64,000 nt of DNA from an uncultured Bacteroides sp. (GTDB lineage: Bacteria; Bacillota; Clostridia; Lachnospirales; Lachnospiraceae). The stretch lies in assembly GCA_945913015.1 (NCBI GenBank), contig CAMECH010000009.1:1-64000 (forward strand), given 5' to 3'. The position numbers and the translations under genes were made by a program. The notes under the pieces were generated by a model. That model was not told the DNA's origin. It made no database searches and saw only the letters and a list, made by a program, of their open reading frames with translations. Shown here in pieces: positions 36,001 to 41,253 of this stretch (its first letter is position 1; each line of letters starts with the position of its first letter).

Positions 36001-36810
36001 GTCCTTTCTTCCCTTAAAAATCTCAGCCCTGTCAGCAAGATATTTGTTATATGTAGCCTCAATAGGCTTTCTGTAATATCCGTCCTTGAAAGTAACATCA
36101 GTAAGCTCAGTTGAAAATGTTGTATGACGGCAATGGTCTGACCAGTATGTGTCAAGCACACGGATTTCAGTCATAGTAGGGTCACGATGTTCTTCATTGC
36201 TGAAGTAATTCTGAATATGAAGAAAATCCTTAAACGTCATTGCAAGGCCAAGCGAATCATACAGTTCCTTAAGCTTGTCCTCTGCCATATCCTTAAATCC
36301 GTCAAACACCTTTACATCGTCAGGTACAGCAAACTGTGCAATAAGAGTATCAGGAATTGCCTCGTCGGCCTTTCTTGAATCAACAGGGTTAATGCAAAGC
36401 TCCATAATCTGTGATTTCTGTTCCTCGCTAAGGCTTCCCGTAATCACATATGTTGTAGCTGTCCTTATTACCGGCTTTTCCTCTGCGTTAAAGAATCTCA
36501 CACACTGTTCTGCCGAATCTGCTCTCTGGTCAAACTGTCCCGGAAGATATTCTACAGAATATATAAAATCATCCGCATTTGACTCAAATTCAGTCTCATA
36601 TACATCATCTACAGGCGGCTCGGAAAATACAGTTGTCAATGCCTTTGCGTATGTCTCGTCAGATAAATTTTCAATATCATAACGGATTAACACTCTTACA
36701 CCGGTTACAGTACTGATGTTAAGATAGCTGCTGATTTCATCTGCAAGTTCCTTTGCCTTTACGGCATATGGTGCTTTCTTTTCAACATAAACTCTTCTTA
36801 CGCTACTCAT
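33028..36810 (-). CDS. purL: phosphoribosylformylglycinamidine synthase
   Basis: 1260 aa single-chain PurL; HNHPTEIEPFGGAATCLGGAIRD and C-terminal glutaminase (GICNGFQAL). Confidence 0.97.
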   Translation of the reverse strand: MSSVRRVYVEKKAPYAVKAKELADEISSYLNISTVTGVRVLIRYDIENLSDETYAKALTTVFSEPPVDDVYETEFESNADDFIYSVEYLPGQFDQRADSAEQCVRFFNAEEKPVIRTATTYVITGSLSEEQKSQIMELCINPVDSRKADEAIPDTLIAQFAVPDDVKVFDGFKDMAEDKLKELYDSLGLAMTFKDFLHIQNYFSNEEHRDPTMTEIRVLDTYWSDHCRHTTFSTELTDVTFKDGYYRKPIEATYNKYLADRAEIFKGRKDKFVCLMDLALMAMRKLKAEGKLQDQEESDEINACSIVVPVEVDGKTEEWLVNFKNETHNHPTEIEPFGGAATCLGGAIRDPLSGRTYVYQAMRVTGAADPTVPMSETMHGKLPQKKLVLGAANGYSSYGNQIGLATGYVKEIYHPNYVAKRMEIGAVMGAAPRRAVIRETSDPGDIIILLGGRTGRDGCGGATGSSKVHTEKSIETCGAEVQKGNAPTERKIQRLFRREEVSCLIKKCNDFGAGGVSVAIGELADGLKVDLDKVPKKYEGLDGTELAISESQERMAVVVAPKDVEQFLKFAAEENLEAVEVAVVTEDPRLVLSWRGKEIVNISRAFLDTNGAHQETTVLVDIPEKKGDEVLDSESYKAEEGSAIKADVKAKWISTLNDLNVCSQKGLVERFDSSIGAGSVYMPYGGKYQLTEVQTMVAKLPVLKGKCDTVTMMSYGFDPYLSSWSPYHGAIYAVIESVAKIVAAGGDFNKIRFTYQEYFRRMTEDPARWSQPFAALLGAYDAQLGFGLPSIGGKDSMSGTFNDIDVPPTLVSFAVDVAKEADVITPELKASGNRLVLFKIASDEYDLPDYAQIKELYNAVHAMIQDKTVISAYVLDRAGLVAAVSKMAFGNKLGVTFDAKLDAADLFAPGFGCIVAEVPAERINDIKVPYIYVGEVNDSSAFTYGDVTITMDEALKAWTEKLEKVFPSKAASKPEAVETKLYSADTVHICKHKVARPTVFIPVFPGTNCEYDSTKAFERAGADVVVKVFKNLDAQGIRDSVEEFTKAISQAQIIMFPGGFSAGDEPDGSAKFFAAAFRNEKMKEAVHKLLDERDGLALGICNGFQALIKLGLVPEGRIVGQNADSPTLTFNTINRHISKMVYTKVVTNKSPWLAESQLGGVYVTPASHGEGRFVAPKEWIDKLFANGQVATQYCDPEGNISMDGEWNVNGSYMAIEGITSPDGRCLGKMAHVERRDESVAINIYGEQDLKIFESGVKYFM

Positions 36811-36899
36811 GGTAGACCTCCATAGTTCTTTAATAAGCTATTATTGTATCATTATTACGGCTATTCCACAAGCCGAAAATACCTAATAAAACAAAGTAA

Positions 36900-37835
36900 T
36901 CATTCATGCATTCTTCTGATAATTTTGTAAACCACTGCATTTTCCATAACCATTGGTGCAGTGTGTGCAAAGAAAATAATTCCGTCCGTAGGAGAAAGAA
37001 TATCACTTATGACTTCACCCTCATACGGGTCTATCACCTGTGCAATCACATCACCGTGATAAACCGGATCACCCGGTTCCTTAAGTCGTCTGTAAAAGCC
37101 TGCCGTATCTGACTTGACCGGCATAAGCTCATGCTCCTCAATGACACTTGCAATATATCCGCTGTGATTATTATATTTTACGATTCCCATCCTCGTAAGG
37201 AATCGTAAGACAGCCGAAACTGCCTGCCTTGCAGACTTTTCATCCACATTGTCGGTCGCATTGGTATATATTGAAAATGCATTTGTTCCGTTCATCTGCC
37301 AGTTATAATTAAGTGTTACCGTGTCCATAGGCTTCGGCTTTCTTGTAACCACATACTGAAGTCCGAAAAGATTGGCAAGGCTTGGGCTTTGAAAGCCTGT
37401 CTCCATCATTCTTACATGTGGTATAAAATCCCCCGGCATATAAAATGATGCAAACTGTATTCCATAGCTGTACCCCCTGACATTGTCAAACAGAGCCTTC
37501 GCTATCTGTTTTGGTGCATCAGCATCAGTCTGCCCCGGAAAACACCTGTTAATATCAACATTGTCAATCGGCCAGAAGCGCTTCTCGACATTGACACCAT
37601 ACTGGTTGACAGTAGGAACAACCATTATTTCTTTATTGTGTGAAATTGCACCGTGCTCCTCAAGATTTTTCAGAGTTTTAATTAGCTGTGAGCATATATA
37701 TAACTGCTGTAATTCATTGCCACGCATGGCGCCTACAATGCATGCAGCCTTCTCACCATGTCCGAATGTATATCCTATGATATCATTACTTTCACGATAC
37801 AGACCTTCGACTGAAAATATTACCTCTCTACGCAT
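36900..37835 (-). CDS. succinylglutamate desuccinylase/aspartoacylase-like protein lacking canonical zinc ligands
   Basis: Aligns with the neighbouring paralog (VDINRCFPG vs LDMNRVFPG) but GAMRGNEL replaces GIHGDEL and GIQFAS replaces DIHSS. Confidence 0.82.
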   Translation of the reverse strand: MRREVIFSVEGLYRESNDIIGYTFGHGEKAACIVGAMRGNELQQLYICSQLIKTLKNLEEHGAISHNKEIMVVPTVNQYGVNVEKRFWPIDNVDINRCFPGQTDADAPKQIAKALFDNVRGYSYGIQFASFYMPGDFIPHVRMMETGFQSPSLANLFGLQYVVTRKPKPMDTVTLNYNWQMNGTNAFSIYTNATDNVDEKSARQAVSAVLRFLTRMGIVKYNNHSGYIASVIEEHELMPVKSDTAGFYRRLKEPGDPVYHGDVIAQVIDPYEGEVISDILSPTDGIIFFAHTAPMVMENAVVYKIIRRMHE

Positions 37836-37854
37836 AATCTACTGCCCTTCCTGA

Positions 37855-38814
37855 TTACTTCACTGCATATACACGTGCCAGCAGCGTTCCCTTGTACACA
37901 ACAGGATTTTCCCTCAATGTAAAAATTATTCCGTCCGCAGGAGACTCTATTCTTTGCAGAACCTTGCCCTCAATAGGACTTATTATATCTCCGATGTGCT
38001 CACCGGATTTTATGTTGCCGAGTCTGTCACCTAACGCCGATATAAATATTCCCGCAGCTTCCGCATGCAGAAAATCCACCTGTCCTTCCGTCGACATAAT
38101 CGGTTCCTTAACCTGTGGTCTTTCATCCTGCCAGATTCCAAGCTCAATCATAATATTAAAAATGCCGTCAATCAACTGTCTGCAATATGCATAATTAATT
38201 CTTAAGCCGACTCCCATCTCCGTGACAAGCGTCGGCACGCCAAGCTTATTGAGACTGTATGCAAGCGTTGCTTCACGCACCGTTATCGATGAATACACCC
38301 ATACAAAATCAGCATTCATTATTCTTGCATAAGGAAGCAGTTTATCTGCACAGTCCTCATTGAGACGAACCTGCAAAGCTTCTTTAATATAAACATTGCT
38401 TGAATGTATATCAATGCACAAATCGCTTCCTATTATGTCATTGACAAGCTCCGCCGCAACATATTCTGCCATTGCTCCGTTATTGTCCCCCGGAAACACC
38501 CTGTTCATATCGAGGTCAAACATCGGAATTCCACGTGTTCCCATATCCATTCCGAGAGGATTGATACACGGATACACATCAACTATCCCCGTAAGGCGTT
38601 CAGGATGCTCATTGATCCTTCTTACCACCTCATACATAACGAACTGTCCGTCAAGTTCGTCGCCATGAATACCTGTAACGAGCGAAATTCTTGCCTCACG
38701 TCCGGTAGCATTATCCGGTTCAAAATGATTTTTTGATATATTGATTTTTTCTTTAACCGGCATTTTAACCGATACAACTTCACTAACCATCTTTCGTCCT
38801 GCCTTAATCTGCAT
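37855..38814 (-). CDS. succinylglutamate desuccinylase/aspartoacylase family protein (M14-like)
   Basis: TGIHGDELDG, LDMNRVFPG, CIDIHSSN, TLVTEMGVG; C-terminal barrel-like domain. Confidence 0.88.
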   Translation of the reverse strand: MQIKAGRKMVSEVVSVKMPVKEKINISKNHFEPDNATGREARISLVTGIHGDELDGQFVMYEVVRRINEHPERLTGIVDVYPCINPLGMDMGTRGIPMFDLDMNRVFPGDNNGAMAEYVAAELVNDIIGSDLCIDIHSSNVYIKEALQVRLNEDCADKLLPYARIMNADFVWVYSSITVREATLAYSLNKLGVPTLVTEMGVGLRINYAYCRQLIDGIFNIMIELGIWQDERPQVKEPIMSTEGQVDFLHAEAAGIFISALGDRLGNIKSGEHIGDIISPIEGKVLQRIESPADGIIFTLRENPVVYKGTLLARVYAVK

Positions 38815-38853
38815 AGATATTTATATTTTATCATTCTTACATTATTAATGCAA

Positions 38854-41253
38854 TTAATTTTCCCAAAAGCGCCTTGCCAGTTCCCCTGCCTGAAAAAGAG
38901 CCGTTTCCTTATAATTATTCCATTCTCTCGGAAAAATGCTTCTGTATTCATTCTTCAGGAATCGTTCATCAAGCAGCGCAATTATGCCTCTGTCTTTTTC
39001 AGTCCTGATTACCCTGCCGGCAGCCTGCATGACTTTATTCATCCCCGGATACACATATGCATAGTCAAATCCGTTCTTGCCCGTTTCGTCAAAATATGTC
39101 TGCAGTATTTTCTGCTCCGTGCACACCATAGGAAGTCCCGCACCTACGATAATCGCACCGATGAGCTGCTCATTCTTAAGGTCGATTCCTTCCGAGAATA
39201 TTCCTCCCATCACGCAGAACCCTGTAACATGCTCCCCTTCTGCACCGTCTGCAAATCTTGCAAGGAATTCCTCTCTTTGCACCTCATTCATTGACATATC
39301 CTGACAGATTATATTCCGGGCGCACTCTTCATTCAGCTCTTTACTTTCAAGCATTTTGCAGATAACTTCGTAAACAGACTGCATAAAGCCGTATGACGGA
39401 AAAAACACCATATAATTTCCGGCTCTGGCGCCCGTAACCTCAAATATATATTTTGCGATTTTTTTATACTCTGCCTCATTACGCCTTGTATATCTGCTGC
39501 TGACATCACGTCCTATAAGTATCTCACGGTTATTGACATCAAACGATGAATGTGCATACACGGCAATCTCATCCGGATTACCGGTAAGCATTTCCTTAAA
39601 ATACTGTACGGGCAGAAGCGTTGCCGAGAAAAATATTGTCGATATTCCCTGCTCTGTACACATTTTCAGGTTATCTGACGGGTCCACGCAGAAAAGGCGC
39701 AGATAAAAATTACCATCCCTGTCATGTTCTGTATATATAACATATTTTTCAGTCAGCAAATCATGCATATTAAGAAAATGTCTGATTTTCAGAAAGAACT
39801 CCATTATCCTCTCAGCATGTTCAAACTTTTTGTTCCTGTCCATGAATTTCTGTATAAGTGAATACACTCTTTCAAGGTGCATGGAAAATCCCGACACGCC
39901 CGTAAGCACCTGATAGTCCTCGCACTCACGCTTAAATCCAAGCATATCCTTATTACATCTTTCGAGTGCCGCATAAAGCTTCTTGTCAATATCCTTAACC
40001 AGCTTTTTTACCGCAAGAAAGTCCTCTTTTACAAGCGTTGCGCTGTACATTGAGCGGCCTCTGTCAACGAGGTTGTGAGCCTCATCAACAAGGAATAAAA
40101 AGCTCCCTTTACTGCCGTCTGCAAAAAATCTTTTCAATCTCACATTCGGGTCAAATACATAATTATAGTCGCATATAATTCCGTCACACCACGTTGATAT
40201 GTCGAGTGACAGTTCAAACGGGCACACCTCATGTTTTTTTGCATACTCAAGCACAACATCCCTGCTGATTGCCGTTTCATGTGTAATCACATCATAGACA
40301 GCATCATTAACACGGTCAAAGTGCCCTTTTGCGTAAGGACATCCGTCAGGATTGCAGTCGCGTTCATCAAGAATACATATTTTGTCGCGTGCCGTAAGTG
40401 TAACCGTCCTGAAATGAAGTCCGTTGTTCCTTAAAATTCCATAAGTTTCTTCCGCTACTGTCCTTGTAATCGTCTTTGCCGTAAGGTAAAAAATTTTATC
40501 AGCAATCCCTTCCCCCACCGCCATGACAGCCGGATATATTGTTGATATAGTCTTGCCTGTTCCGGTAGGTGCCTGAATATACAGATTTTTGCCTGCCTGA
40601 CAGCTTCTGTATACACTCGCCGCAAGCTCCTTCTGCCCTTTTCTGTACTGAAATGGGAATTTAAGCCCCTTGATTGAATCTGTACGTATCATCTGCTGTT
40701 CAAATACGAAGTCCGTCCATTTTGAAAAACTGCCTATAAGCTCAACAAACCAGTCCCCAAGCTCTTCCATAAGAAATTCTTCATAGAAATATTTGATTTT
40801 TTCATCATCAATACTGCAGTATGTCATCCTGATCCTTATACGCTCAAGGCGTTCCCGAGTTCCGTATATATATGCATAGCACATGGCCTGCGCCTTATGG
40901 ACATACACAGGCTCTTCTATCCTGTTCACATTCCCCGTGACTGTTTTAATCTCATCAATGCATACATCCGGGTTATCTTCGCTTCCTTCTGTAATTATTC
41001 CGTCAGCCCGTCCTTCAAGCGTAATCGTATAAGAACATTCCTTTTCTACCAGCACATCTGCCTTGAGTGCAACCTCCGCCGCATATTCCGAGCCCATTCT
41101 TTTTTGTATTGCGCGGTGTATCCTTGCACCTTCCTGCATCCTTGCGACATCAGATGAAGAGCTGACACGGTTATCTATATCACCGCTGCTGTATATAAAT
41201 TCAACAAGATTTCTCACCGAAATCCTGATAGTCCGGTCCTTAATTATATACAT
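38854..41253 (-). CDS. XPD/DinG-type Fe-S helicase with N-terminal PD-(D/E)XK nuclease-like domain
   Basis: APTGTGKTIST, VDEAHN; CxnC Fe-S region CILDERDCNPDGCPYA...CPFEL; N-terminal GRADGI...CIDEIKT. ORF track start at 41379 reads through a repeat; MYIIKDRTIRI chosen as start. Confidence 0.88.
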   Translation of the reverse strand: MYIIKDRTIRISVRNLVEFIYSSGDIDNRVSSSSDVARMQEGARIHRAIQKRMGSEYAAEVALKADVLVEKECSYTITLEGRADGIITEGSEDNPDVCIDEIKTVTGNVNRIEEPVYVHKAQAMCYAYIYGTRERLERIRIRMTYCSIDDEKIKYFYEEFLMEELGDWFVELIGSFSKWTDFVFEQQMIRTDSIKGLKFPFQYRKGQKELAASVYRSCQAGKNLYIQAPTGTGKTISTIYPAVMAVGEGIADKIFYLTAKTITRTVAEETYGILRNNGLHFRTVTLTARDKICILDERDCNPDGCPYAKGHFDRVNDAVYDVITHETAISRDVVLEYAKKHEVCPFELSLDISTWCDGIICDYNYVFDPNVRLKRFFADGSKGSFLFLVDEAHNLVDRGRSMYSATLVKEDFLAVKKLVKDIDKKLYAALERCNKDMLGFKRECEDYQVLTGVSGFSMHLERVYSLIQKFMDRNKKFEHAERIMEFFLKIRHFLNMHDLLTEKYVIYTEHDRDGNFYLRLFCVDPSDNLKMCTEQGISTIFFSATLLPVQYFKEMLTGNPDEIAVYAHSSFDVNNREILIGRDVSSRYTRRNEAEYKKIAKYIFEVTGARAGNYMVFFPSYGFMQSVYEVICKMLESKELNEECARNIICQDMSMNEVQREEFLARFADGAEGEHVTGFCVMGGIFSEGIDLKNEQLIGAIIVGAGLPMVCTEQKILQTYFDETGKNGFDYAYVYPGMNKVMQAAGRVIRTEKDRGIIALLDERFLKNEYRSIFPREWNNYKETALFQAGELARRFWEN

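Follow-up and report, generated by a model that had tools for sequence, protein, structure and literature searches.

An AstE-fold pseudoenzyme conserved beside a predicted AstE/AspA-type hydrolase, and the link of the pair to ATP-grasp/alpha-E/transglutaminase operons

Hydrolases of the AstE type and operons with ATP-grasp, alpha-E, and transglutaminase genes are both already known. The nearest solved relatives of the two proteins described here, by sequence and fold, are the N-acetyl-diaminobutyrate deacetylase DoeB/EutE (6TWL/6TWM), the AstE-like structures 3CDX, 3NA6, and 2QJ8, and the cyanophycin dipeptide hydrolase CphZ (8EIN/8EIP). DoeB and the three AstE-like structures represent single-sequence proteins, unlike the pair found here, and to our knowledge no paired pseudoenzyme accompanies CphZ. 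The CphZ family is annotated as AstE/M14 and acts on beta-Asp-Arg isopeptides (PMC10206079). In the Anbu operon, the gene order is ATP-grasp, alpha-E, transglutaminase, and Anbu (PMC6376114, PMC5666114), and peptidase activity was not detected in vitro for the Anbu proteins examined (PMC6376114). Paired homologs are found among the M16B heterodimeric peptidases (MPP alpha/beta, SPH2681/2682, TTHA1264/1265, and AlbE/AlbF); in MPP, only one of the two subunits has the zinc motif, yet the second is required as well (PMC12731061). No description of an AstE-family pseudoenzyme, of the pair reported here, or of where it stands in the operon was found in the open-access literature, a scope outside which the founding operon paper (Iyer 2009) lies, and the pair and its operon position are provisionally regarded as new.

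The window analysed here, a stretch of 64,000 nucleotides, contained two open reading frames which the initial annotation had described as a tandem AstE/aspartoacylase-like pair separated by a short gap; both frames, the gap, and all of the quoted motifs were present (Table 1). Since both frames were on the minus strand, the intact gene, B, came first and A second. The pair stood between a DinG-like helicase gene upstream and purL downstream, and no terminator-like sites were detected in the scanned interval 36700-39000. Both proteins scored above the 25-bit Pfam cut-off for PF24827, the AstE/aspartoacylase catalytic domain (78.3 bits for B and 42.1 bits for A), and they were the only PF24827 members in the genome assembly of the window. 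The best sequence match of B in the PDB was 3cdx (E 6e-15). AlphaFold2 models were obtained with pLDDT values of 93.9 for A and 91.6 for B, and Foldseek matched A to DoeB/CphZ/AstE-type structures with E values of 1e-22 to 1e-18. The fold was shared by A and B with DoeB, 3CDX, 3NA6, and 2QJ8 across almost their full length (TM about 0.71-0.83), whereas the zinc and catalytic residues of these structures were common to B and absent from A. CphZ had the same fold, and the C-terminal domain of A matched it by sequence (E 1e-6). The scores against the DoeB equivalog TIGR02994 were 32.0 bits for A and 42.9 bits for B, below its cut-off of 402.7.

Table 1. Positions of the paired genes, their active-site residues, and the intermediate tandem pairs
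Feature	Position	Strand	Description
B: AstE/AspA-type hydrolase, apparently catalytic from its sequence	37855..38814	(-)	319 aa; PF24827, 3cdx match, AlphaFold2 model
B His50, first zinc ligand (GIHGDE)	38665..38667	(-)	97% conserved, 99 B sequences
B Glu53, zinc ligand	38656..38658	(-)	100% conserved, 99 B sequences
B His137, zinc ligand (DIHSS)	38404..38406	(-)	invariant, 99 B sequences
B Glu199, catalytic Glu (TEMGVG)	38218..38220	(-)	invariant, 99 B sequences
Intergenic gap, B stop to A start	37836..37854	(-)	19 nt; genes without overlap in the window
A: AstE/AspA-fold pseudoenzyme	36900..37835	(-)	311 aa; PF24827, AlphaFold2 model, Foldseek
A Arg38, replaces first zinc His	37722..37724	(-)	100% in 100 aligned A sequences
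A Glu41, retained equivalent of zinc-ligand Glu	37713..37715	(-)	invariant, 100 A sequences
A Asn96-Arg97 (NRCFPG), counterpart of conserved NR motif	37545..37550	(-)	100% and 99% conserved
A Gln127-Phe128-Ala129, opposite Asp-x-His of the catalytic family	37449..37457	(-)	gapless alignment via intermediates
A Tyr190, replaces catalytic Glu	37266..37268	(-)	99% conserved, 100 A sequences
Intermediate tandem pairs	L171:5591-7562, L170:5990-8018, L182-L187		zinc triad kept, Met for catalytic Glu

The motifs GIHGDE, DMNR, DIHSS, and TEMG of B contained the HxxE...H ligands and the catalytic Glu expected of a catalytic PF24827 member, and B is apparently such an enzyme, with predicted activity. 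By fold, with a Foldseek E of 3e-22, and by sequence, A belonged to the same AstE/AspA family, yet judged by its zinc ligands and catalytic Glu it did not qualify as a catalytic member, and all of its catalytic features were gone except one ligand Glu (E41). The division into one intact enzyme and one pseudoenzyme made in the initial annotation held beyond the window, with the zinc ligands and the catalytic Glu kept in the 99 B sequences and, apart from the ligand Glu, substituted in the 100 A sequences, and so did the proposed His-to-Arg exchange, the loss of the catalytic Glu, and the retention of the Asn-Arg of NRCFPG in A. The second zinc His had been read as replaced by Phe (F128), but alignment through the intermediates described below placed A129 at this position and Q127 opposite D135 of B. 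Q127 was 96% conserved across the 100 A sequences, and residue 129 was small and variable (A/T/P/V) among the A orthologs. This register agreed with the strands of the AlphaFold2 models (residues 124-128 of A and 132-138 of B), whereas an hhalign comparison put a gap at the second-His region. An alignment shift that would restore the ligands of A was ruled out because intermediates from other genomes fix the register, and His/Glu/His was not retained among the 100 A sequences.

Across 97 loci with both genes, the mean identity was 65% for A and 58% for B, and the A sequences were the more similar ones in 94% of the locus comparisons, which share loci and are hence non-independent. At least 95% conservation was reached by 105 columns in A and 67 in B. 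The same residue was conserved at this level in both proteins at 18 aligned columns, including D94, N96, R97, and R86, while at 13 others both were conserved with differing residues, including H50 to R38, D135 to Q127, and E199 to Y190; a further 72 columns were conserved in A only. As judged from these column counts, A lost its catalytic apparatus and stayed under constraint, which was switched and not relaxed.

The survey covered 397 genomes of the family, with A called at E below 1e-50. A was found in 87 genomes and B in 84; all 84 genomes with B also had A, and 84 of the 87 with A had B, which makes the pairing close to obligate across these gut Clostridia. The three genomes with A and without B were G061, G124, and G208. 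In G208 the contig ended just past A, and in G124 the A match spanned only residues 91-311, so that both look to lack B through truncation at a contig end. The A gene of G061 (L131:4319-5230) had its conserved residues and no adjacent B, with no contig end to account for this, and A can therefore persist alone at least once. B was ahead of A on the same strand in the loci examined, with a 4-nt stop/start overlap in 45 of 115 loci and other spacings of -23 to +71. In about a dozen genomes there were two pairs, duplicated as a unit.

These observations are best accommodated if A and B form a heteromeric amidohydrolase, with A as its non-catalytic member, and if this heteromer was part of a peptide-ligase system; we consider this reading probable. 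A and B would descend from an AstE/DoeB-type amidohydrolase gene that was duplicated in tandem long ago. With its zinc site kept, B would cleave a small substrate that bears a carboxylate, at an amide or isopeptide bond; from the chemistry of the family, we infer an amide or isopeptide of an amino-acid-like carboxylate as the substrate class. A would have lost the catalytic Glu first, followed in the Clostridia line by both zinc His residues, and would have become a dedicated non-catalytic subunit that assembles with B. Its pocket (R38, E41, R86, D94, N96, R97, Q127, H140, and Y190), remodelled and strictly conserved, may bind the ligand of B or part of a longer one and so position the substrate or gate B; as a structural guess, R38 sits at the zinc position and pairs with E41. 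By analogy, MPP-type M16B peptidases offer a precedent for a needed paired subunit without the zinc motif. Their fold and clan are unrelated to those of the AstE-type proteins, which act on small substrates and not on large peptides.

The initial annotation had left the choice between a catalytic/noncatalytic heteromer and a binding-only paralog. The heteromer is favoured by the 84/84 pairing, the 45/115 overlaps, and the stronger conservation of A than of B; the solitary A of G061 and the 19-nt spacing in the window, where the genes do not overlap, count against it. It seems rather unlikely that A instead works apart from B, as a binding-only or regulatory protein for sensing the substrate or product of B with no lasting complex: the pocket residues R86, D94, N96, and R97 stayed while the catalytic ones were gone, and G061 has A without B, as such a protein would allow, but the presence of A in all 84 genomes with B, the fixed order, and the frequent stop/start overlap argue for a closer association, and Pfam detected no DNA-binding or signalling domain in A.

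The peptide-ligase system is suggested by the gene neighbourhood. Of 99 loci with extended flanking sequence, 42 had a transglutaminase-like gene and 41 an alpha-E gene just upstream on the same strand, with a gene for a circularly permuted ATP-grasp protein (CP-ATP-grasp) before both, and the order CP-ATP-grasp, alpha-E, transglutaminase, B, and A, with the pair last, was found in 42. The three upstream families were confirmed by Pfam in example loci. Alpha-E was present in 49 of the 397 family genomes, and 47 of these had A (Fisher p 3e-34); since this test ignores phylogeny, the adjacency of the two genes, which were within 2.3 kb of each other in 44 of the 47 genomes, is the stronger evidence. 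The first three genes and their order were the same as in the Anbu operon, which ends in the proteasome-like Anbu, whereas the operon here ends in the AstE-type pair at that place. No PF00227 proteasome-fold protein was detected in the 49 alpha-E-positive family genomes or in the window genome, by a search that gave matches in 10 of 14 controls. Two alpha-E-positive genomes, G269 and G375 (L175 and L176), had no AstE pair and kept CP-ATP-grasp and alpha-E, with the transglutaminase seen in L175 only. In G019 (L208:351-1830), a truncated CP-ATP-grasp gene was followed directly by a truncated transglutaminase-like gene, with no alpha-E, A, or B. An anti-phage role and a cyanophycin link were also considered and set aside: PADLOC recognised neither the pair nor any of the three operon proteins, and no cyanophycin gene was recognised among the recurrent neighbours of the pair.

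In the proposed heteromer, the A-B module would serve as the hydrolytic arm of the ATP-grasp operon and trim or recycle the ligase product, a direction that we infer. More tentatively, in Clostridia an ATP-grasp/alpha-E/transglutaminase peptide-tagging or peptide-synthesis system might use the metallo-hydrolase/pseudoenzyme pair as a non-homologous replacement of Anbu, with A reading or holding the product and B cleaving it; we regard this wider proposal as possible and short of an even chance. The presence of a hydrolase family with well-studied small-molecule chemistry where Anbu would be points to small amides or isopeptides as the products and away from protein degradation, and the pair offers an assayable hydrolase for these little-understood systems. 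A shared operon alone does not prove a complex, since pull-downs with the Yersinia bercovieri Anbu operon did not detect specific binding of Anbu to its operon partners (PMC6376114).

In the window lineage, the pair survives without its three operon partners. No alpha-E gene was found in the genome of the window, the operon was absent from beside the pair, and CP-ATP-grasp was present as a remnant only. This remnant was a 125-aa ORF on another contig (G000:C24 26687-27061; L206:4688-5062, +), in which the first ~78 residues of CP-ATP-grasp were joined in frame to ~31 residues resembling the C-terminal end of A. The ORF is apparently a scar left when a five-gene operon was deleted; it may instead be an assembly join, and the fusion was not seen in two same-genus genomes. 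The operon form in the distant lineage of L171, where the same three genes were upstream of an intermediate pair, together with the scar in the window genome makes the operon link of the pair look ancestral. Both observations count against the pair being a general N-acyl amino acid deacylase that works apart from the ATP-grasp operon and is linked to it only incidentally, in some lineages. That possibility, which is compatible with any reading of A, draws on the 40 A genomes without alpha-E and on the window and other Lachnospira-type genomes, in which the pair is alone between the DinG-like helicase and purL; we give it a small though real chance. The survival of the pair without the ligase genes in many genomes does indicate that its role is not tied to them alone.

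The intermediates were tandem pairs in six genomes of another class, in which the second gene, at 6570-7562 in L171, kept HGDE and DxH and the catalytic Glu was changed to Met in all six. In a tree with its root drawn at the midpoint, A grouped with the intermediate and B with the B of the intermediate genomes, with support of 99/96 on the A side and 100/97 on the B side, and other AstE-like proteins branched outside A/B. The stem branch of A was long (2.19) and was followed by slow evolution. The simplest order of events would start with the duplication, after which the catalytic Glu disappeared, zinc was lost later on the long branch, and evolution then slowed, although Glu may have been lost twice independently, in A and in the intermediate. 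On the simplest order, the pair illustrates how an enzyme turned step by step into a pseudoenzyme, with an extant intermediate lacking the catalytic Glu and keeping the zinc site. The intermediate, the operon context, and the retention of E41 were absent from the initial annotation. Each of the six intermediate genomes also had one PF00227 protein, on another contig or more than 400 kb away by coordinates, and these proteins are possibly HslV.

The long stem with slow evolution after it, and the larger number of strictly conserved columns in A than in B, many of them in A only, would also be expected if A were an enzyme with a new, zinc-independent activity in the remodelled pocket (R38, E41, H140, and Y190). 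We consider this improbable, since conservation by itself is no demonstration of catalysis, a recognised catalytic constellation was absent, and so strict a dependence on B points to A being a partner. That A is a decaying, functionless duplicate of B is scarcely credible, because its loss of catalytic features is set against a reading frame intact in nearly all matches, its near-invariant columns, and conservation above that of B, which contradicts random decay or a pseudogene.

Two other AstE-like arrangements are distinct from the A/B pair. In a different tandem (L158:1222-3272, -), both copies kept HxxE, His, and Glu and branched outside A/B. At L164:1171-3174 (-), a single ORF of at least 668 aa, read by eye, contained several AstE/M14-like domains, nearly identical and one after another. 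In G719, the gene immediately downstream of the intermediate A (L170:5021-5986, -) encoded DUF7852 with a Cys-rich stretch, and it was not seen downstream in L171.
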